Positions 32,043 to 42,341 of a DNA stretch of 42,341 nucleotides are shown here, piece by piece. The notes beneath the pieces are model-generated. The model was not told where the DNA came from, made no database searches, and saw only the letters and a list, made by a program, of their open reading frames with translations. Positions within the stretch are counted from its first letter, which is position 1, and each line of letters starts with the position of its first letter. Made by a program: the position numbers and the translations under genes. Location: positions 1 to 42,341 of the forward strand of contig CAUJFR010000039.1 in NCBI GenBank assembly GCA_963169885.1, read 5' to 3'. Source of the stretch: Bacteroidota bacterium (GTDB lineage: Bacteria; Bacteroidota; Bacteroidia; Chitinophagales; Chitinophagaceae).

Positions 32043-34598
32043 ATGAAAAAACCATTCCTGCTTTTTACCGTTGTCTTTGTTTTTGTTTTGAATTCGCTCA
32101 GTCAGGGCCTGGAGAGTTTTTCCAGCATGCCTGTTACTACCAGTTCATCTTATTTAAGCCGAAACTGGACTGGGGACGGTGGTATTACCTGGACGGCGAC
32201 TGATACCAGGGCGGATCAGACTATTACCGGTCTTGCGGCTGGAATCAGAAACAGCAGCATTACATCCGGTAACATTACGTCGGGTATAGGCAATCTGTCA
32301 TTTAAGTATAAGTATCTCTTTACTGGCATTAACGCATCGCTTACCATTCGTGTTAATGGCACAGTGGTTGGAACTGTTTCTGTACCCACCACACAGACCA
32401 CAGCCACAACAGCCACAATAAATAATATTAATGTCAGCGGAACCTTTATCCTGGCGATTGAACAAACAGTAACCGGACAGCGGGTCGCAATTGATGATCT
32501 CAGCTGGACCGGCTTTGGGGTTTCTTGCTCATCCCCTGTTACTCAAGCCAGTAATGTTACTTTCAGTGGGACATCGGCCAGTGGGTTTTCGCTTAACTGG
32601 ACATCCGGAAGTGGAACGAATTCACTGGTCGTAATTAAGCAGGGGGGGGGCGTTACAGGAGTCCCAACAAGTGGCAATGCCTATACCGCAAATTCCATAT
32701 TTGGATCAGGTCAGACTATTGCCACGGGTGAGTATGTGGTGTATAACAGTACGGGAAATTCCGTTTCGGTAACAGGACTTACTGCTGGTACCACTTATCA
32801 TATCTCGGTATTTACTTTTAACAGTGCAGATAACTGTTATACAACTGCAGCTCCCGCAATAAATAACAATACCACCAGTTGCCAGCAACCTACTGTACAA
32901 GTTGGTGTTATAACCCCTGGTGCATCCAGTACTTCAGCCAGTATTAGCTGGTCTGGCGGAAACGGGGGCGCTTCACTTGTAAAAATAAACACATCAAATA
33001 GTTTTATTAATCCGGTAGATGGCATCCAATATCCGGCAACCACTTCTTATGGCGGCGGTGAGCAAACAATTTATGCAGGAGTCGGGTCATCTGTAACCGT
33101 CACAGGTCTCACTGCCAGTACCTCGTATTTTGTAACGGTGTACACTTATAATGCCTGTGCAGGGGCCCCAGATTATTTAATAACCGGTACCACTGTTTCA
33201 AATTTTACAACCACAGCTGGTGGCGGTGAACCGGCCGGTTATTATTCTGCCGCTACCGGACTTACTTGTTCCTTTCTTAAAACAGCACTCTCTTCGATTA
33301 TTACAACAGGGATGACGCCAAAAACCTATGGTAATCTCTGGACTGAATACCTGGTATCTGATATTAAACCCAGAGAAGTAGGTGCTGGATCTGCGAATGT
33401 AATCTGGGATATTTACAGTGACAATCCATCGGGTACGGATCCTTATAATTTTATACCAGGTACTGTAGCTAGTGGTGGGCAACAGGATAATGGCGGAGCA
33501 GCGGCCACAGAAGGCGTATTATATAACAGGGAACACAGTGTGCCTCAAAGCTGGTTTGGAGCCAGTGCGGCATCTGGTTCTATCGGACCGGAAAGCGACT
33601 ATTTCCATATTTTCCCAACTGATAAAGTGGTGAATGCAGCCCGAAGTAATTATATATATGGGGTGGTAAATGCGCCAACTTTTACTAGTCTGAACGGTGG
33701 AAAACTGGGAGCTAATACGGCAACCGGACTAACGGGGGCCACTGCCTTTGAACCAATTGATAGCTTTAAAGGAGATGTTGCCCGGGCTTTTTTCTATTTT
33801 GTAACCCGTTACCAGAGTAATATGTCAGCATGGGAAGCTTTGTCAACTGAAGGAAATCTGGCATTTGATGGTACAACCTGGCCATCGGTGGAACTCCCTT
33901 ACCTGCAAATGATGATAAACTGGCATAACCTGGATCCGGTGAGCCAGAAAGAGATTAACCGAAATAATACAGGCTACCTGTTCCAGGGGAATCGGAACCC
34001 CTTTGTAGATCATCCCGAATATGTTAACCAGGTGTGGGTGGCTGGTTGTGGAATTATTTTACCTGTAAAACTTATTCAGTTTACTGGTTTATATTCTTTA
34101 AATAAAGTTGTACTGAACTGGGATATTGAAACCCCCGAAGGGTTTGACCGTTTTGAAGTGGAAAGAAGTACGGATGGCGGCCGCACATTCCATAAAGCAG
34201 GAACGGTTGAATGGATGAACGGAAAATTCCAGTATTTATTCCGTGATGAAGACCAAACACTAAAAGGAGATGTATTTTATCGCCTTAAATTAATTGATCA
34301 GAATAATACCTTCACTTATACTAAGGTAATACGGGTAGTGGTTCCTGCTGATGAACTGATGGTTGAAATCTATCCCAATCCTGCCGCTGGCAATCTGACA
34401 TTGAACTTAAAGAAACCGCTTTCCGCTGCAGCAACTTTATTACTATCAGATTATACTGGCCGGACAATCAAATCGATGCTCGTTTCAGCAGGTCAGCAGC
34501 GCTTAACAGTACCATTAGACAATGTGGCTCCAGGCACTTATCTGATTCAGCTCCATACAGCCAACTCAACCATGTATGCCAAATTCATCCGGCAATAG
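32043..34598 (+). CDS. Secreted endonuclease I family nuclease with FN3 domains and T9SS sorting domain
   Basis: This 851-residue extracellular nuclease has a signal peptide (MKKPFLLFTVVFVFVLNSLSQ), a beta-sandwich of about 140 residues (WTGDGGITWTATDTRADQ, FILAIEQTVTGQRVAIDDLSW), and two fibronectin III-like domains (about 165-280 and 283-395). An endonuclease I domain (about 400-690) has YNREHSVPQSWFG with candidate catalytic H498, followed by GPESDYFHIFPTDKVVNAARSN. The C-terminus has a beta linker (RFEVERSTDGGRTFHKAG) and type A sorting domain (VEIYPNPAAGNLTLNL, TYLIQLHTANSTMYAKFI). EndA-type enzymes cut DNA without sequence preference, so nutrient or biofilm DNA degradation is likely. 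Eight consecutive G lie at 32642-32649. Confidence 0.92.
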   Translation: MKKPFLLFTVVFVFVLNSLSQGLESFSSMPVTTSSSYLSRNWTGDGGITWTATDTRADQTITGLAAGIRNSSITSGNITSGIGNLSFKYKYLFTGINASLTIRVNGTVVGTVSVPTTQTTATTATINNINVSGTFILAIEQTVTGQRVAIDDLSWTGFGVSCSSPVTQASNVTFSGTSASGFSLNWTSGSGTNSLVVIKQGGGVTGVPTSGNAYTANSIFGSGQTIATGEYVVYNSTGNSVSVTGLTAGTTYHISVFTFNSADNCYTTAAPAINNNTTSCQQPTVQVGVITPGASSTSASISWSGGNGGASLVKINTSNSFINPVDGIQYPATTSYGGGEQTIYAGVGSSVTVTGLTASTSYFVTVYTYNACAGAPDYLITGTTVSNFTTTAGGGEPAGYYSAATGLTCSFLKTALSSIITTGMTPKTYGNLWTEYLVSDIKPREVGAGSANVIWDIYSDNPSGTDPYNFIPGTVASGGQQDNGGAAATEGVLYNREHSVPQSWFGASAASGSIGPESDYFHIFPTDKVVNAARSNYIYGVVNAPTFTSLNGGKLGANTATGLTGATAFEPIDSFKGDVARAFFYFVTRYQSNMSAWEALSTEGNLAFDGTTWPSVELPYLQMMINWHNLDPVSQKEINRNNTGYLFQGNRNPFVDHPEYVNQVWVAGCGIILPVKLIQFTGLYSLNKVVLNWDIETPEGFDRFEVERSTDGGRTFHKAGTVEWMNGKFQYLFRDEDQTLKGDVFYRLKLIDQNNTFTYTKVIRVVVPADELMVEIYPNPAAGNLTLNLKKPLSAAATLLLSDYTGRTIKSMLVSAGQQRLTVPLDNVAPGTYLIQLHTANSTMYAKFIRQ

Positions 34599-35555: not shown

Positions 35556-37616
35556 TTGCATCGTTTTTTCATCTTTTATCAAATCAGTTTTACTCTGAGA
35601 AGCAACTATATATACCTGTCTTTTTTTTTACTGCTTTTTATTTCCCAGGCCTTGCTGGCACAGGAGCCTGCTATGCAATTGGGAAACCGGCTTAAAAACC
35701 TGGGTAGCAGTTTCTCCGGTGGCAGTGGAAATGACAGCCTGAAACACCGGGATAATTCAGAGGATTCCATCACGATCAGTTTCCGGTATATGGATTCTAC
35801 CCGGCAGTACAAACTCGATTCCTCGGTCGGTGATTTTACCCGTCGCTTTCCGCTTCCGGGAACCTCGATCAACCTGGGGAATACCGGCCTGGCCACCCGT
35901 TCATTGCTTTTTTCCCCGGAATTAAATGCTGGTTTTGATCCGGGTTTTCACGCCTTTGATGTATATAAATGGAAACTGAGCGAAGTTCGTTTTTTTAATA
36001 CCACCCGTCCCTATTCAGAACTGAATTATATGCTTGGCAGCCGGGTGGAACAGATGATCAGCCTGATTCATACCCAGAATATCAAGCCCAACTGGAATTT
36101 TCTGTTTCAGTACCGGCTGATCAATTCTCCCGGGTCTTTCCAGAACCAGAACAGCAATCATAATAATTACCTGCTGAGTTCAAAGTATCAATCGAAAAAT
36201 CTGCGGTACAATAATTATTTCGTTTTGCTTTCCAATAAACTTCAGGCTTATGAAAACGGAGGCATTATTGATACCACGGATATTCTGAACGATCCGGACT
36301 TTAAGGAACGTTATAATATCAATACAAGAATCGGGGGTAAAAAGGTTTTTTCCACCAACTTTTTTGGTAATAAAATCAATACAGGAAATAAGTACAGCGA
36401 AACCACCCTGCTGTTCCGTCAACAGTATGATTTTGGAAAAAAGGATTCCCTGGTCACCGATTCCACTATTATCCCATTGTTCTTTCCACGACTGCGTTTT
36501 GAACATACCCTCCAGTTTGATCGTAACAGTTATACTTTTCAGGATAATGCAGGGGATTCACTTTATTACCGGGCGTACTATGATACTGCACTCAGAGATG
36601 CCAATGATACAGCCCTGTTTTCGGATAAATGGAAATTGCTGAACAATGATTTTTCCATTTACCAGTTTCCGGATGCCAAAAATCTGCATCAGTTTATTAA
36701 ACTGGGATTACTGGTACAGACAATCACCGGCACTTTGTCTTCGGGTAAACTGAATTTTTTTAATACGGCGGGACATGCGGAATACCGGAATAAATCAAAA
36801 AACCAGCGTTGGGATATCCAGGCCAATGGTCGATTGTTTTTCACCGGGTATAATTCCGGGGATTATGAGGCGCATATCCGTCTGCAGAGCCTGCTGAGCA
36901 AAAAAGCCGGGTCGTTGGAACTCGGATTTGAAAACACGAGCCGTACCCCCTCGTTTATGTTTGATTCCCGAAGTAGTTTTTACCTGATGAAATCAGTGGT
37001 AAACCTGAAAAAGGAAAACAATACTCATCTTTTTGCCTCTTATTTTCTGCCCTCATTTAAAATGAAACTGACCGGCCATTATTTCCTGGTCACGAATTAT
37101 ACCTACCTGGATAATTATTTTGAAGTGAACCAGGAAAGCAGCCTCTTTAACCTGCTTCAGATAGCAGTAGAGAAAACGATCCGGATCGGCAACCACTGGA
37201 ACTGGCATGCCGAACTGTATTTTCAGCAACGGGTAGGCGAGGCCCCGGTCAATGTACCGGCCTTATATACCCGTAACCGGATCGGGTATGAGGGTAGTTT
37301 AGGGTTTAAAAATCTGGATATTGCTTTTGGCACGGAGATCAGGTACCGGGCTGCCTATAAAGCGGATCATTATTCACCGGTAATGGGTCGTTTTTTCTAC
37401 CAGGATACCACGGTCATCCGGAATCCATTGCCCGATATTGCGGCCTATGTGCATTTCAGAATCCGGCCCTTTACCGCTTTTGTCCGGATGGAAAACCTCA
37501 ATACCGCCCGGAATTTCAACGGATTCGGTTTTACCCGTAACAACCTGGTAGCTCCCTTTTACGCCCTGCCGGGTCTGCAGTTCAGACTGGGGGTATTCTG
37601 GCGCTTTGTTAATTGA
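35556..37616 (+). CDS. Putative outer-membrane porin (Porin_10 family)
   Basis: This 686-residue protein is predicted to form an outer-membrane beta barrel for solute passage. A signal peptide region (YIYLSFFLLLFISQALLAQE) is followed by about 120 polar residues, then many amphipathic strands (SEVRFFNTTRPYSELNYMLGS, WNFLFQYRLINSPGSF, NLRYNNYFVLLSNKLQ, RFEHTLQFDRNSYTFQD) and a C-terminal strand ending LPGLQFRLGVFWRF, with a terminal aromatic residue as expected of barrel proteins. Family assignment (Porin_10) is by pattern. No ATG lies before the signal peptide; TTG 35556, 10 nt after an exact -7 box, is the best start. Substrate unknown. Confidence 0.82.
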   Translation: MHRFFIFYQISFTLRSNYIYLSFFLLLFISQALLAQEPAMQLGNRLKNLGSSFSGGSGNDSLKHRDNSEDSITISFRYMDSTRQYKLDSSVGDFTRRFPLPGTSINLGNTGLATRSLLFSPELNAGFDPGFHAFDVYKWKLSEVRFFNTTRPYSELNYMLGSRVEQMISLIHTQNIKPNWNFLFQYRLINSPGSFQNQNSNHNNYLLSSKYQSKNLRYNNYFVLLSNKLQAYENGGIIDTTDILNDPDFKERYNINTRIGGKKVFSTNFFGNKINTGNKYSETTLLFRQQYDFGKKDSLVTDSTIIPLFFPRLRFEHTLQFDRNSYTFQDNAGDSLYYRAYYDTALRDANDTALFSDKWKLLNNDFSIYQFPDAKNLHQFIKLGLLVQTITGTLSSGKLNFFNTAGHAEYRNKSKNQRWDIQANGRLFFTGYNSGDYEAHIRLQSLLSKKAGSLELGFENTSRTPSFMFDSRSSFYLMKSVVNLKKENNTHLFASYFLPSFKMKLTGHYFLVTNYTYLDNYFEVNQESSLFNLLQIAVEKTIRIGNHWNWHAELYFQQRVGEAPVNVPALYTRNRIGYEGSLGFKNLDIAFGTEIRYRAAYKADHYSPVMGRFFYQDTTVIRNPLPDIAAYVHFRIRPFTAFVRMENLNTARNFNGFGFTRNNLVAPFYALPGLQFRLGVFWRFVN

Positions 37617-37685: not shown

Positions 37686-38078
37686 ATGAAGAAACTGGTC
37701 CTGACCATATCTTTTTTATGCTATCTCACCGTAACCTGTGGGGTAGTGGTCAACCTGCATTATTGCATGGACCGGCTGGCTTCTGTCCATTTTTTCGGGG
37801 ATGAATCAGACCAGTGTGGTCAGTGCGGGATGTTGTTACATGAAAGCAATACCTGCTGTCACGATGAAGTGAAAGTCTTTAAACTGGAACAGGATCAGAA
37901 TAAAGTCAGTACTACGGATAATACACCTGTTTTTACCACTGAACTGGCAATTGAACCTTCCCCTTTTCTGAATGCTCCGTTTGAATCGGAGTTGGGACAG
38001 GTGAACGCCTTTATAAATCCCCCGCCACTACTATCCGAACAGGATACCTACCTGCAGATTAATGTCTTCCGGATCTGA
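37686..38078 (+). CDS. HYC_CC_PP family protein (copy 1)
   Basis: This 130-residue protein has an N-terminal signal or anchor (MKKLVLTISFLCYLTVTCGVVV) and a cysteine/histidine block: LHYCMDR, QCGQCGM, then NTCCHDE, with a proline-rich tail (INPPPLLSEQ) ending NVFRI. The HYC, CC and PP landmarks define the family, usually found near heavy-metal-associated domain genes in Bacteroidota. Role unknown; the Cys and His residues are suited to binding soft metals such as copper, by inference. It resembles the second copy at 40809 in all three motifs and in the terminal VFRI. First gene of the locus. Confidence 0.85.
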   Translation: MKKLVLTISFLCYLTVTCGVVVNLHYCMDRLASVHFFGDESDQCGQCGMLLHESNTCCHDEVKVFKLEQDQNKVSTTDNTPVFTTELAIEPSPFLNAPFESELGQVNAFINPPPLLSEQDTYLQINVFRI

Positions 38079-38172
38079 TACGCTGATTATTTTATAGCGA
38101 CTGGCAACAGCCGGTCAACCTTTGTGTCTTATGGCACGATATTATTTATTCATTAATTAATAAAAATTTATT

Positions 38173-38832
38173 ATGAAAACGATTCGCTTATTTTCATTGA
38201 CTGCCGTTATGGTAGCCATTACTTCGCTGGGTTTTGCCCAGACTAAAACAGAATCATTCCAGGTTTCCGGTAATTGCGGTATGTGCAAGACCCGTATTGA
38301 GAAAGCGGCTAAAGAGGCCGGTGCGTCCGATGCCAAATGGGATGCGGCTACACAACAACTGACCATCACTTATACCAGTTCCACCACCAATGCCGCTAAG
38401 ATCCAGGAAAAGATAGCCGCAGTTGGACATGATAATGCAGGTTTTAAAGCCACCATGGATGTTTACAATAAACTTCCCGGTTGCTGCAAGTATGACAAGG
38501 CGGCCGCTGCGGATAAAATGGATTGCTGTAAAGATGGCAAATGTGCTAATGCCGGCAATTGTGATAAACCCTGCTGTAAAAAAGAGGGCGACATGAAAAT
38601 GGATTGTTGCAAAGATGGCAAATGTGCCAATGCCGGCAATTGTGATAAACCTTGTTGTAAAAAAGAAGGCGCCGCTAATATGGATTGCTGTAAAGAGGGC
38701 AAATGTAATAAAGAAGGACATGCCGGTAAAGATTGCTGCAAGAAAGAAGGGGCTGCCAAAATGGATTGTTGCAAGGATGGCAAATGCAGCAAAGAAGGAC
38801 ATGATGGTAAAGACTGCTGTAAAAAATCCTGA
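38173..38832 (+). CDS. Secreted HMA-domain protein with four cysteine-rich repeats
   Basis: This 219-residue periplasmic or secreted protein has a signal peptide (1-23, TSLGFAQ). An HMA domain (about 28-92) has CxxC at C35/C38 (SGNCGMCKTRIEK). An extension ends in NKLPGCCKY (C104, C105). Four tandem units of 27 residues start at M116, M143, M170 and M197; the first reads MDCCKDGKC then NCDKPCCKKEG. The protein has 26 cysteines, 22 of them in the repeats, plus many lysines, so it looks like a metallothionein-like store attached to a chaperone domain. The metal is probably copper or another soft metal, by inference. The HMA part is a close homologue of the N-terminus of the receptor at 41280. 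Confidence 0.88.
   Translation: MKTIRLFSLTAVMVAITSLGFAQTKTESFQVSGNCGMCKTRIEKAAKEAGASDAKWDAATQQLTITYTSSTTNAAKIQEKIAAVGHDNAGFKATMDVYNKLPGCCKYDKAAAADKMDCCKDGKCANAGNCDKPCCKKEGDMKMDCCKDGKCANAGNCDKPCCKKEGAANMDCCKEGKCNKEGHAGKDCCKKEGAAKMDCCKDGKCSKEGHDGKDCCKKS
38518..38829 (+). repeat. 81-bp coding tandem repeats, 4 units
   Basis: The units start at 38518, 38599, 38680 and 38761, each 81 bp (27 codons) with the last shortened by 12 bp. Units 1 and 2 share the longer cysteine pattern (CANAGNCDKPCC), units 3 and 4 a variant (NKEGH or SKEGH, then GKDCC). Copy number is likely to vary between strains by unequal recombination. Confidence 0.9.
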
Positions 38833-38851
38833 TTAAGCAAAAAAAATAAAC

Positions 38852-39397
38852 GTGAAGAAAACAGGGTTGTTAATAGTATTGATATTACAGGTGCTGCTGA
38901 TGCAGGCTCAGTTCAGCAAGGCGAACCTGCAGGCTACCGGTCTGACCTGCGCCCTGTGCAGTAATGCCATTAATAAAGCACTGAAGCAACTTCCTTTTGT
39001 GGAATCGGTGAAAGCGGATATTAAGAACTCCTCTTTCAGTATTGTATTCCACCAGGGCGTGGAAGTAAAACCGGATGCGATCAGGGATGCGGTGGAGGGA
39101 GCCGGTTTTTTTGTAGGGGGGTTACAGGTAACCGGTTCATTTAAGAACCTCAATACCGGTCCGGATGGGATTATTAAAATAGGAATGAACTGGTTCCGTT
39201 TTCTGAAGGAATCCAACCGGGTATTGAATGGTGAAGTAACTTTTACCCTGCAGGATAAATCATTCCTGACTGCCAAAGCGTTTAAAAAGATCAGCAGTTC
39301 GGTAAAGATCCCCAGCTTGTCAACCGGTAAAGCAGAAGCGGACCAGGTGAAAGCAGGGGTGAAAAAAGGAGAGCGGATCTATCACGTGACCATTTGA
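38852..39397 (+). CDS. Secreted HMA-domain protein (second)
   Basis: This 181-residue protein has a signal peptide (MKKTGLLIVLILQVLLMQAQ) and an HMA domain with CxxC at C33/C36 (GLTCALCSNAINKAL), followed by a beta-rich region (VTGSFKNLNTGPDGIIKIGMN) ending with KGERIYHVTI. The C-terminal part may be a ligand-binding or partner domain; I do not recognise it. The start is GTG 38852, 19 nt after the preceding stop. A strong terminator follows. Likely a periplasmic metal chaperone or sensor component, by inference from context. Confidence 0.8.
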   Translation: MKKTGLLIVLILQVLLMQAQFSKANLQATGLTCALCSNAINKALKQLPFVESVKADIKNSSFSIVFHQGVEVKPDAIRDAVEGAGFFVGGLQVTGSFKNLNTGPDGIIKIGMNWFRFLKESNRVLNGEVTFTLQDKSFLTAKAFKKISSSVKIPSLSTGKAEADQVKAGVKKGERIYHVTI

Positions 39398-39409
39398 TCA
39401 ACGTATATT

Positions 39410-39446
39410 GTTTCTCTCCCCTTTATAACGGGAGAGAAACTTTTTT
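39410..39446 (+). terminator. Strong terminator inside the metal locus
   Basis: GTTTCTCTCCC (39410-39420), 9-nt loop, GGGAGAGAAAC (39430-39440), then six T. A perfect 11-bp stem. It splits the locus: HYC1, Cys-rich HMA and HMA2 upstream; TlpA, OMP, HYC2 and receptor downstream. It could act as a partial attenuator. Confidence 0.93.
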
Positions 39447-39458
39447 AATGAGTTCTAT

Positions 39459-39950
39459 ATGTTTTCATTGAAACAAATCACCGGTCTTATCCTTCTTATA
39501 TGTATGGGTACACTGGTGCAGGCGCAAATCAAACAAGGGTATAAAGCCCCTGAAGTGGCATTGCCGACCGCCAACGGAGATACGATCCGGCTTTCATCCT
39601 TGAAAGGGAAAGTGGTGTTGCTCGACTTCTGGGCTTCCTGGTGTGGTCCCTGCCGGATTTCCAATAAGGGATTGGTAAAACTATATCCGAAGTATAAGGA
39701 TAAAGGCTTTGAAATTCTTGCGGTATCATTGGATGAAGATGTTGACGACTGGCAAAAAGCCGTAAAAAAAGATAAGGGCAGTTGGCTCCAGGTAATCGAT
39801 AAAGGGGGATGGGAATCAGGTACGGTGAACCAGTGGCGTATCGTTGCCATACCAACGTCTTATCTGATCAATAAGGACGGAGTCCTGGTAGCCATGGACC
39901 TGGAAGGGAAGAACCTCGAAAAAGCATTGAATGAATTGTTGGGTGACTGA
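39459..39950 (+). CDS. TlpA-like periplasmic thioredoxin
   Basis: This 163-residue protein has a signal peptide (LILLICMGTLVQAQ) and a TlpA/ResA-type thioredoxin fold: APEVALPTANGDTIRLSSLKGKVVLLDFWASWCGPCR with redox pair C62/C65 and cis-proline P132 in VAIPTSYLINKDG. These proteins reduce disulfides in the periplasm, often for cytochrome or copper-site maturation. Here a natural partner is the set of Cys-rich and CxxC proteins in the same locus, whose cysteines must be reduced to bind metal; that is an inference from position. It lies 13 nt upstream of the next gene. Confidence 0.92.
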   Translation: MFSLKQITGLILLICMGTLVQAQIKQGYKAPEVALPTANGDTIRLSSLKGKVVLLDFWASWCGPCRISNKGLVKLYPKYKDKGFEILAVSLDEDVDDWQKAVKKDKGSWLQVIDKGGWESGTVNQWRIVAIPTSYLINKDGVLVAMDLEGKNLEKALNELLGD

Positions 39951-39963
39951 TTAATTATTCCAA

Positions 39964-40803
39964 ATGAGATACCTGATTTTTTCCGGATTATTGAGTTTAA
40001 TGTGCGTGCAAGGCAATGCACAGGAGTTATATGTTTTCAGTGAACCAGCATCAAATTTACCTGCCCGTTCGCTTAGTGTAAAAATCAAGAATCACTTTGT
40101 GACCCGCGATAACATTTATGGTCGTTTTTCCAACCGCCTCATGCCACAGGTCTTTTTCGGCATTCATAAAAATCTGATGCTGCGGGCCGGTATTTCGGTT
40201 GCGAATATGCATACGCCGGATACCCGCTATGAATCGTTTAATGTCTATGCGAAGTATCGTTTAGTGTCCAAAGATGATATTCACCGGCATTTCCGTTTAG
40301 CGGTCTATTCGGAGTTTTCTGAAACAAGGATTCCTTTTCATTATGATGAGATCACGCTTATGGGCGATAAAGGCGGGGTGGAAGCCGGGCTGGTTGCCAC
40401 ACAACTCTGGCATAAGTTTGCATTATCCGGTACAATTGGCCATACACAGGTTTTACATAAATCACGTAAGGATAATGTGATTTATATCCCCGAACGGGGT
40501 TACCAGTCATTGAATTATTCCCTGTCTGGTGGATTGCTGATATTGCCCAAAGAGTATACTGATTATAAGCAAACCAATCTGAACCTCTATATTGAATTAA
40601 TTGGTCAGCAATTAATGGATAAAAAGGCCGGGTTCCTCGATCTGGCTCCGGCCGTCCAGCTGATTTTCAGAAGTACCACCAAATTAAATATGGGCTATCG
40701 TTTTCAGTTAAATGGCTCGATGCAGCGGATGGCTTCCCAAAGCTGGCTCATCAGCCTTGAACGGACTTTCCTGAATGCGTTAAAGAAAAAGCAGCCTAAA
40801 TAA
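39964..40803 (+). CDS. Predicted outer-membrane protein, family not recognised
   Basis: This 279-residue protein has a signal peptide (MRYLIFSGLLSLMCVQGNAQ) followed by alternating hydrophobic/polar strands: RSLSVKIKNHFVTR, RLMPQVFFGIHKNLMLRAGISVANMH, ESFNVYAKYRLVSK, HFRLAVYSEFSETR, KFALSGTIGHTQVL, QSLNYSLSGGLLI, NLNLYIELIGQQLM, PAVQLIFRSTTKLNMGYRFQLNGS. That looks like an 8-12 stranded outer-membrane barrel. It has no cysteine after the signal. Its place between the TlpA-like and HYC_CC_PP genes suggests a role in metal passage or sensing, but the sequence gives no direct proof. Confidence 0.65.
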   Translation: MRYLIFSGLLSLMCVQGNAQELYVFSEPASNLPARSLSVKIKNHFVTRDNIYGRFSNRLMPQVFFGIHKNLMLRAGISVANMHTPDTRYESFNVYAKYRLVSKDDIHRHFRLAVYSEFSETRIPFHYDEITLMGDKGGVEAGLVATQLWHKFALSGTIGHTQVLHKSRKDNVIYIPERGYQSLNYSLSGGLLILPKEYTDYKQTNLNLYIELIGQQLMDKKAGFLDLAPAVQLIFRSTTKLNMGYRFQLNGSMQRMASQSWLISLERTFLNALKKKQPK

Positions 40804-40808
40804 ATGCC

Positions 40809-41204
40809 GTGCGCAAAACCGGACTGATCATATTGACCTTTCTATACCTTGCGTTTACCGCAGGGATCAGCGTACAACGTCATTATTGCATGAACCGGAT
40901 GGCCGCCCTTCGCTTTACGACTCAGCCGGAAGAACGTTGTGGATTTTGCGGCATGGAGAAAACAGAGCGGGATAATTCCTGTTGTCACGATGAGCAGGCG
41001 GTTTATAAAATCACCGATGATCAGCAACCGGGTTTTCCGACATTGTTTATTGTCAATGAATTTCAGGTAGGGTCTCCGGAACACTATATTCCGGTGTCCG
41101 GTTCAATAACTTCTGCTTCAGTCCCCGTCCCGGCTTACAGCCATGGACCACCGGGAGTATCCGCCTTCCCCTTATTTATTCGTTTTGGCGTTTTTCGTAT
41201 TTAA
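40809..41204 (+). CDS. HYC_CC_PP family protein (copy 2)
   Basis: This 131-residue homologue of the 37686 gene has the signal or anchor TGLIILTFLYLAFTAGISV followed by RHYCMNR, RCGFCGM and NSCCHDE, and a proline-containing tail (YSHGPPGVSAF) ending GVFRI. The start is GTG 40809, 5 nt after the OMP stop. A family copy opens the locus and another directly precedes the receptor, which suggests that HYC_CC_PP proteins work with HMA proteins. The end of the gene is followed by a 75-nt gap to the receptor start. Confidence 0.85.
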   Translation: MRKTGLIILTFLYLAFTAGISVQRHYCMNRMAALRFTTQPEERCGFCGMEKTERDNSCCHDEQAVYKITDDQQPGFPTLFIVNEFQVGSPEHYIPVSGSITSASVPVPAYSHGPPGVSAFPLFIRFGVFRI

Positions 41205-41279
41205 TGAAGAAGTATCCAGTTTCTATGGCCGGTAAGAACCGCCATGCATCTGATTATTTCATTCATCTAATACATTATC

Positions 41280-42341
41280 ATGAAAAATATCATACCGCTT
41301 GTATTGTTCTCTTTACTGCTTTTCAGCAGAGAGAATTTACAAGCGCAAACGGGTTCTGTAATAACCATTGCCCTGAAAGTATCCGGGAACTGTGAAATGT
41401 GTAAAGAACGGATTGAAGCGGCCGCCAAAGGTAAAGGAGTAAAAGAAGCCACCTGGGATGCGGATACCAAATTGCTGACCCTGACCTATGATACGTTGCT
41501 GTCCCGTATTGAAAAAGTACATACCCGGATTGCTGACGCCGGCCATGATACAGAATTGAAGAAAGCCAAAAACGATACGTATAAAGCATTGCCTGAATGT
41601 TGTCTTTACCGGGATCATAGTGAAACAATGTCTGTGGATCCGGGTAATACCCGGACTTCTATGGTGCGTGGTGTGGTACTGGAAGAAGATGAACGGGGAA
41701 ATTTCAGGCCACTGGCACGGGCCACTATTGCCTGGTTGGGAACCGGTACTGGTACAGTAACGGATAGTACCGGGGTGTTTAAGATTAATGTAACCACGGA
41801 GACCGACCGCCTGATCATCAGTTACACTGGATACCGGCCGGATACCATCGCCGTACAGCCGGCCACAGATCTGAAAATAATCTTGGCGAGTAACCAGCAA
41901 CTGGGCGAAGTCACCCTTAGCTCAAAAAGGCGGTCTACTTACATTTCTTCTCTGAGTACGATCCGTACACAGGTGATGACGGAAAATGAACTCTTCAAAG
42001 CGGCCTGCTGTAATCTCAGTGAGAGTTTTGAAACCAATCCCTCCGTTGATGTATCGTATAACGATGCGGTAACGGGCAGTAAACAGATTCAGCTGCTTGG
42101 CTTAAGCGGCAATTATACTCAACTTACTGTGGAGAATCTGCCCGGTCCGCGGGGACTGGCCACAGCCCTTGGACTCAACAGCATTCCCGGTCCATGGGTG
42201 GAGTCGATTCAATTGAATAAGGGAGTGGGTTCAGTAGTGAATGGCTATGAAAGTATTGCCGGGCAAATCAATATTGAATTAAAAAAACCGGAGAAAGCGG
42301 AACAGCTCTACGACAACGTTTACATGAATAATATGGGCAAG
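41280..42341 (+). CDS. TonB-dependent receptor with N-terminal HMA domain (partial, 3' end cut)
   Basis: The first 354 residues are visible and the frame is open to the last base. A signal peptide (about 1-22) is followed by an HMA domain with C38/C41 (SGNCEMCKERIEA) and an extension YKALPECCLY (C107, C108) that matches the Cys-rich protein at 38173. Next are a CarboxypepD_reg-like domain (about 128-215, ending QQLGEVTLSS) and a TonB plug (about 228-336: ELFKAACCNLSESFETNPSV, GSVVNGYESIAGQINIEL). The barrel lies outside the window. The receptor likely imports or exports a metal or metal complex across the outer membrane with TonB energy. The start ATG 41280 gives a proper signal peptide; an overlapping short frame at 41204 is not a gene. 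Confidence 0.9.
   Translation, partial: MKNIIPLVLFSLLLFSRENLQAQTGSVITIALKVSGNCEMCKERIEAAAKGKGVKEATWDADTKLLTLTYDTLLSRIEKVHTRIADAGHDTELKKAKNDTYKALPECCLYRDHSETMSVDPGNTRTSMVRGVVLEEDERGNFRPLARATIAWLGTGTGTVTDSTGVFKINVTTETDRLIISYTGYRPDTIAVQPATDLKIILASNQQLGEVTLSSKRRSTYISSLSTIRTQVMTENELFKAACCNLSESFETNPSVDVSYNDAVTGSKQIQLLGLSGNYTQLTVENLPGPRGLATALGLNSIPGPWVESIQLNKGVGSVVNGYESIAGQINIELKKPEKAEQLYDNVYMNNMGK

Follow-up and report, generated by a model that had tools for sequence, protein, structure and literature searches.

The window analysed here, 42,341 bp in length, is an entire contig (C39) of a draft genome (G000) whose closest named relatives are metagenome-assembled genomes of the Chitinophagales and Chitinophagaceae, and its last gene, starting at position 41280, encodes a TonB-dependent receptor with an HMA domain at its N-terminus. 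The domain make-up of this protein, its HMA fusion, an invariant cysteine pair in its plug and its conserved neighbours are demonstrated, and small HYC_CC_PP family proteins, HMA-CC domains (HMA domains with a CC extension, YxxLPxCCxY) and the TonB receptor constitute a module that is conserved across Bacteroidia. On balance, the receptor appears to represent an undescribed Bacteroidota family, a TonB-dependent receptor for a thiophilic metal, likeliest Cu(I), with a tethered periplasmic HMA-CC carrier. The gene has the following features (A2 is an alignment and profile of 12 HMA-CC copies):

41280..42341, + strand: HMA-fused TonB-dependent receptor, N-terminal 354 aa, truncated where the contig ends (HMA, CarbopepD_reg_2 and Plug domains above cut-off)
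41349..41630, + strand: HMA-CC domain of the receptor, with CEMC and LPECCLY (alignment A2; fused clade in the tree)
41667..41912, + strand: CarbopepD_reg_2 domain of the receptor, residues 130-211 (PF13715, 47.7 bits)
41961..42263, + strand: Plug domain of the receptor, residues 228-328 (PF07715, 33.7 bits)
42006..42011, + strand: invariant Cys-Cys of the plug, residues 243-244, in AACCNLSESF (CC in 118/118 receptors)

The open reading frame (ORF) in the window covers 354 of about 860 amino acids. A search for the rest of the receptor placed its C-terminal 145 aa at the end of contig C274 of the same genome, where a second TonB receptor and then a 133-aa protein follow; locus L048 has the same order, with CusA next. 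A complete relative (L047, 90% identity) has both the plug, which the window piece also contains, and the TonB-receptor beta-barrel Pfam domains. The Cys-Cys that is invariant in the 118 receptors was also found in 15/15 further loci (14 from other classes) and in 18/18 of another set, nine of them repeating earlier rows, and five paralogues, four of which form one subfamily, have SP, AP or ST at this position. Histidines are common at positions 388 (113/118), 593 (106/118) and 527 (94/118) in the numbering of the G011 receptor. Two variants were encountered: an unfused sister receptor subfamily of the same genus with ACCDLAGCF, and hence a third Cys, in the plug (L040, L041, L045 and L046), and a receptor whose N-terminus carries a tandem pair of HMA-CC domains (L158, G078).

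The preliminary description of this DNA had stated that the extended HMA domain of the receptor aligns without gaps to that of a secreted Cys-rich protein encoded at 38173 (here CysHMA), about half of the residues being identical, and that both continue into Y-x-x/K-x-LP-x-CC-x-Y. The gap-free alignment and the common extension were reproduced, and "about half" is more precisely 39 of 85 residues (46%), where 2,000 shuffles in best gap-free placement gave at most 17 identities. This likeness is specific, since each of the two domains is identical at only 9 of 67 positions (best gap-free placement) to the second HMA protein of the locus, HMA2, encoded at 38852. In the search with PF00403 (cut-off 24.8), the proteins at 38173, 38852 and 41280 scored 31.4, 39.2 and 24.9 bits, the last barely over. 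CxxC and CC are both invariant in all 12 copies of A2, and CxxC is present in 122/122 HMA domains tallied; the full HMA-CC motif occurs in 16/16 fused domains, 9/9 CysHMA proteins, 82/91 separate neighbours of receptors and 0/6 HMA2 proteins. Comparison of A2 with PDB sequences returned 25 matches, mostly copper-ATPase domains and CopZ, together with MerP and two zinc ATPases; these solved chains match only up to profile position 75, and the CC pair occupies positions 82-83. The HMA-CC structure of CysHMA is well predicted (AlphaFold2 mean pLDDT 92.7).

The neighbourhood of the receptor was analysed in 98 class-level loci, one per genus and each the first listed row, taken from a search of 295 genomes that scored three candidates per genome, so that top-scoring rows are represented and weaker receptors unsampled; a neighbour was defined as a gene on the same strand within 1.5 kb of the receptor. 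An HYC gene is adjacent in 79 of these loci and an HMA gene in 75, and the HMA domain is fused in three, which extends to the class the link between the extended HMA domain and a TonB receptor that had been noticed in the window. By combination, 61 loci have HYC and HMA, 16 HYC only, 14 HMA only and four neither, and the remaining three are fused (two with HYC). Because near-receptor proteins had served as seeds for the local HYC and HMA profiles, a within-locus position control was applied: HYC occupies 76/194 slots at -1/-2 versus 6/876 elsewhere within seven genes, and HMA 75/192 slots at -1/+1 versus 10/878 elsewhere. The upstream HMA genes (n = 38 in all 118 loci) lie at a median of 3 bp from the receptor ORF. 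Beyond HYC and HMA, no neighbour cluster exceeds 10 of the 98 loci, the largest being scattered in position; clusters lacking family-search annotation include CusA-like (2/98), AraC-like (3/98) and TlpA-like (3/98) proteins. In the 15 further loci, all but one from other classes, HYC was found at -1/-2 in 11 and HMA directly adjacent in six, with neither in four.

The receptor is widespread at E<=1e-150, being found in 70/99 Bacteroidia genomes and in 64/247 genomes of an even draw across the phylum, 27 of them outside the class; the 295-genome search yielded 221 matches, of which 195 were strong at this threshold (counted by eye). A search of 35 g1 genomes showed the HMA domain fused in 12 (the window's own included), and the unfused sister receptor with ACCDLAGCF was found in at least four of the remaining ones. 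In other families, most of the HMA domains have a gene of their own (110-160 aa) beside an HMA-less receptor of about 750 aa. The order HYC, CC receptor, HMA is seen in Parabacteroides distasonis (WP_005855442, 444, 446) and likewise in Bernardetia, the three genes bearing the annotations hypothetical protein, TonB-dependent receptor and HMA-domain protein, and Haliscomenobacter has an HMA-like gene, the CC receptor, a paralogous receptor and CusA in order. Among the compared Chitinophagaceae loci, the second HYC gene directly precedes the receptor in the window, L047 and L011, and HYC follows it in L052 and L055. Two side observations concern distribution. Receptor-like matches (44.6% and 51.7%) occur in the phage records MT838850.1 and MT837870.1 (fecal 'Bacteriophage sp.'), which are perhaps bacterial DNA. 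In the accessible part of PMC6417203, a Porphyromonas gingivalis HMA gene is read as the E. coli heme receptor Hma; PGN_0493 and PGN_0495 are each reported as raised, a pattern that would agree with a gene order HMA-receptor-HYC.

A phylogenetic tree of 115 HMA-CC domains, built on a short alignment that leaves many forks open, grouped the fused copies of the window's family into one clade (14 rows, 97/90) and CysHMA into a separate one (15 rows, 100/92). A recent HMA duplication between the two window genes was thereby ruled out, as CysHMA forms its own supported clade at 46% identity. The fused copies of G311, G078 and G055 fall outside the window's fused clade, G055 on a long branch whose placement is unsure. 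The fused label requires a minimum of four changes, three of them forced by starred branches (gains or losses); several independent fusions are likely, and one fusion with two splits also fits the tree. These results bear on the possibility that a common domain was fused to a TonB receptor by chance, with no shared function. HMA domains are indeed common, with seven matches in the window's genome; such reuse is nevertheless very improbable, given that HMA genes neighbour the receptor class-wide, far above other gene positions, and that the tree has repeated changes of the fusion label.

The metal was approached through the company that HMA-CC keeps away from the receptor. The A2 profile (E<=1e-10) found matches in 78 of the 99 class genomes. 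It gave 102 matches outside G000, of which 52 are no more than 2 kb from a receptor, and 51 of the 70 genomes with a receptor have such a match. Twenty regions, hand-picked to cover 21 of the 50 receptor-remote matches with a preference for long fused ORFs and high scores, were inspected. HMA-CC is fused to DUF3347 in ten of them, seven preceding a multicopper oxidase-like gene and two having CopA upstream; it forms the C-terminus of CusB-type adaptors in four, and is a separate protein beside CusA in three (L194, L202 and L205, with L194 counted twice). By hand tally, copper- or silver-type genes are present in 17 of the 20 regions (L199 having DUF3347 alone) and none in L200, L203 and L204; L201 showed no HMA ORF among the ORFs listed. 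Pfam confirmed the partners in the ten proteins scanned. As seen in L186-L199, where it is fused to DUF3347 or to the C-terminus of CusB, HMA-CC is possibly a general copper-carrier domain of Bacteroidota. Copper is the likeliest metal because the fusions of HMA-CC to CusB or DUF3347 in these picked regions have multicopper oxidases or CopA close by, and copper or silver is thus, by this association only, quite probably what is handled. Another thiophilic metal or a metal chelate, such as zinc, mercury or a chalkophore-type complex, is a rather improbable substrate: MerP and zinc-ATPase HMA domains also match A2, and CrtA of Bordetella imports chelated copper (PMC12914433, in the part available), whereas the partners of HMA-CC in the picked regions are copper machinery (CopA, multicopper oxidase, CusA/CusB and DUF3347). 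A link between the receptor and heme-copper oxidases is unsupported, the receptor being strong in nine of 14 COX1-less genomes.

Upstream of the receptor lie a second module, a Cys-rich HMA block, and then HYC2, with these features:

35556..37616, + strand: Porin_10 outer-membrane protein, whose gene opens the conserved block (PF14121, 285.7 bits)
37686..38078, + strand: HYC1, small Cys-rich HYC_CC_PP family protein (NF047658, 41.6 bits, cut-off 28)
38173..38832, + strand: CysHMA, Cys-rich HMA protein with signal peptide (by eye), HMA-CC domain and Cys-rich tail (PF00403, 31.4 bits; 26 Cys in 219 aa)
38239..38508, + strand: HMA-CC domain of CysHMA, CxMC and the LPGCCKY extension (alignment A2; AlphaFold2 model)
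38515..38826, + strand: 81-bp tandem repeats coding for the metallothionein-like CysHMA tail, 22 Cys in 107 aa (Tandem Repeats Finder, Cys count)
38852..39397, + strand: HMA2, second HMA protein, CxxC without CC extension (PF00403, 39.2 bits)
39459..39950, + strand: TlpA/ResA-like thiol-disulfide protein (Thioredoxin_8, AhpC-TSA and Redoxin over cut-off)
39964..40803, + strand: predicted outer-membrane protein (OMP), matching no Pfam or NCBIfam family
40809..41204, + strand: HYC2, small HYC_CC_PP family protein directly upstream of the receptor (NF047658, 38.3 bits, cut-off 28)

Seven genes lie within 37686-42341, all on the + strand and separated by gaps of 5-94 bp, and every ORF named in the preliminary description was recovered in its place. 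That description had read the locus as a metal-handling one with two HYC_CC_PP proteins, a second HMA protein, a TlpA-like reductant and an outer-membrane protein. The two HYC proteins and HMA2 pass their family cut-offs, as listed (of nine HYC candidates elsewhere, three were over the cut-off, three under and three without a match), and the TlpA-like protein is a thioredoxin-fold member by Pfam, scoring 88.9 bits against NF002854, under its cut-off of 170. The ORF at 39964 was confirmed, its outer-membrane label being retained as a prediction. The repeats of the CysHMA tail have a period of 81 in two overlapping rows, with 87% and 74% matches. The Bacteroides-type promoter pattern has no match in the window, versus 1.9 expected by chance, an uninformative result. 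Farther upstream, at 32043-34598, an 851-aa protein combines, by eye, a signal peptide, fibronectin-like repeats, an endonuclease I-like stretch and a C-terminal T9SS-like sorting domain.

The block order, Porin_10, HYC1, CysHMA, HMA2, (TlpA-like), OMP, recurs in relatives, and the reading as a metal-handling locus whose gene order is conserved in the genus is supported, the synteny of homologous loci being the comparison on which the earlier reading had been staked. The first HYC gene has a Porin_10 homologue upstream in nine of 11 same-genus loci and in 8/8 of L008-L015, the contig edge being reached before this position in L047 and L055 of the same genus; an OMP homologue is present in six of the 11 and in L009-L015. 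What the cluster continues into in relatives differs between loci: a second TonB receptor, CusA, DUF3347 or a multicopper oxidase. Among nine fetched loci (L008-L016), the block occurs with no receptor nearby in five (L010 and L012-L015), both are present in L009 and L011, L008 is cut by the contig end, and L016 has the receptor without the block. In L013-L015 the block lies beside CusA and CusB (on the opposite strand in L013), and in L010 it accompanies a paralogous second receptor. A whole-genome search of the five block-only genomes, whose completeness is not given, found no receptor match in two; the other three have matches only at E 9e-97 to 3.5e-111, which is paralogue level by the yardstick of L011, where the paralogue scores 6e-106 and the true receptor 0. 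As the block occurs without the receptor, three times beside CusA/CusB, CysHMA looks like part of an efflux block, a putative periplasmic copper buffer of an efflux or tolerance locus into which the receptor module would have been placed.

The preliminary description had instead cast soluble CysHMA as the donor that hands metal to the receptor HMA at the outer membrane. The two domains do belong to one HMA family with the same four Cys, and CysHMA is visible in nine of 11 same-genus fused-receptor loci, contig ends truncating the remaining two. Nevertheless, this donor-acceptor pair is not favoured and is improbable, as CysHMA belongs to a separate clade, its block lacks the receptor in five of nine loci (three of them beside CusA/CusB), the class-wide partner of the receptor is its own HMA gene, and import would run from receptor to carrier, in the opposite direction.

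According to the copper-entry model, metal would enter via the receptor barrel, the plug Cys-Cys would help to release it, the tethered HMA-CC would capture it through CxxC and CC on the periplasmic side, and soluble carriers or an efflux system would then take it on, with HYC_CC_PP as a small, conserved accessory protein rich in thiols. The receptor module of this genus sits inside the efflux-type block (CysHMA, HMA2, TlpA-like protein and OMP, in some relatives also a second TonB receptor and CusA), so that uptake and detoxification genes would share one operon-like cluster. The model is preferred because TonB-dependent receptors are, as a rule, importers. Import is probably the direction of the receptor, and direct hand-over from plug to HMA is suggested only tentatively. 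Alternatively, the receptor could serve detoxification, as a copper-binding outer-membrane part of an efflux or sequestration locus, or as a sensor of external copper, rather than import. This would suit the genes, listed above, into which the cluster continues in relatives, the fusions of HMA-CC to CusB and DUF3347 elsewhere, and the AraC-type regulator that follows the receptor in L011, L051 and L055; it is unlikely given the importing habit of TonB-dependent receptors, the rarity of CusA-like and AraC-like clusters among the 98 loci, and the absence of any STN signalling domain reported by Pfam in the window receptor and the relatives scanned. AraC-type regulators near copper genes were noted at L051:12040-12606, L011:15644-16207, L055:2793-3305, L193:2068-2637 and L199:3738-4340, and those read have an N-terminal NMVCxRC-like motif, so a metal sensor is possible.

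Several observations weigh against the copper-entry model. The plug Cys-Cys may be structural, and the structure predicted for the whole receptor is too poor to place it relative to HMA (mean pLDDT 58.8, with most of the plug <50). The CC extension is absent from nine of 91 receptor-adjacent HMA proteins, 20 of the 98 class-level loci have no adjacent or fused HMA, no A2 match is found within 2 kb of the receptor in 19 of the 70 genomes that have one, and 50 A2 matches out of 102 lie away from it. Beyond the genus, a CusA-like gene accompanies the receptor in just two of the 98 loci, and the CxxC fold is compatible with zinc, mercury and silver. A strong receptor (E<=1e-150, hand count) was found in nine of 14 genomes without COX1 and in 186 of 281 with it, a comparison of low power because COX1 is present in 281 of the 295 genomes. 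If the model is true, Bacteroidota gain a candidate copper importer that is widespread and combines an invariant Cys-Cys with a carrier beside it. The HYC_CC_PP and HMA genes, to which present annotation gives no function, would gain a context, and with the fused form, direct hand-over of metal can be tested within a single protein.

Few copper-specific outer-membrane transporters are known, according to the accessible part of PMC12914433. OprC/NosA of Pseudomonas are TonB-dependent copper receptors with a CxxxM-HxM site (PMC8610252, in part); the present family resembles them as a TonB-dependent receptor with metal ligands including a plug Cys, for ionic copper in their case, and differs in its plug Cys-Cys, HMA partner and HYC_CC_PP neighbours. 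An OprC-type copper site was ruled out, as the CxxxM and HxM motifs occur together, anywhere in the protein, in 0/118 receptors. CrtA/BfrG of Bordetella, the TonB-dependent receptor that imports chelated copper, has a conserved ligand site with an invariant His, and, as described in the available part of PMC12914433, likewise represents a TonB-dependent copper import family with conserved gene neighbours; it is mostly beta/gamma-proteobacterial with a PepSY_TM partner, and the word HMA is absent from the main text of that paper. A Bizionia study assigned copper uptake to an OprC-like receptor and listed HMA proteins separately (PMC11213822, accessible part). No published description of this receptor with HMA or HYC_CC_PP was found in a search covering few subscription journals, the name HYC_CC_PP was not found in the literature searched, and the accessible parts of PMC11960050, PMC12119571, PMC10434189 and PMC6417203 do not describe the module. 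HYC_CC_PP (NF047658) is a named NCBIfam family to which both window proteins belong, and its association with the CC receptor is shown here. HMA-CC shares the CxxC HMA domain with CopZ and MerP and differs from them in its signal peptide (by eye), in an extra CC outside the matches to solved chains and in scores far under the family cut-offs, the three window HMA proteins (38173, 38852 and 41280) reaching only 22.3, 36.3 and 22.3 bits for CopZ (NF033795, cut-off 91) and 22.2, 21.9 and 20.4 bits for MerP (TIGR02052, cut-off 92.55). CusF is a small periplasmic Cu(I)/Ag(I) carrier, and some CusB proteins (SilB) bear a C-terminal CusF-like domain. It is conceivable, though doubtful, that HMA-CC is the Bacteroidota counterpart of CusF, an exchangeable periplasmic Cu(I) carrier that would occur alone or fused to CusB, to DUF3347 before multicopper oxidases or to the TonB receptor, where a thiolate relay from the plug Cys-Cys to CxxC and CC would never leave copper free in the periplasm. 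Both are periplasmic carriers that are either separate or fused to an envelope transport part; the present carrier differs from CusF/SilB in being an HMA-family domain with a CC extension that is also fused to an outer-membrane receptor.

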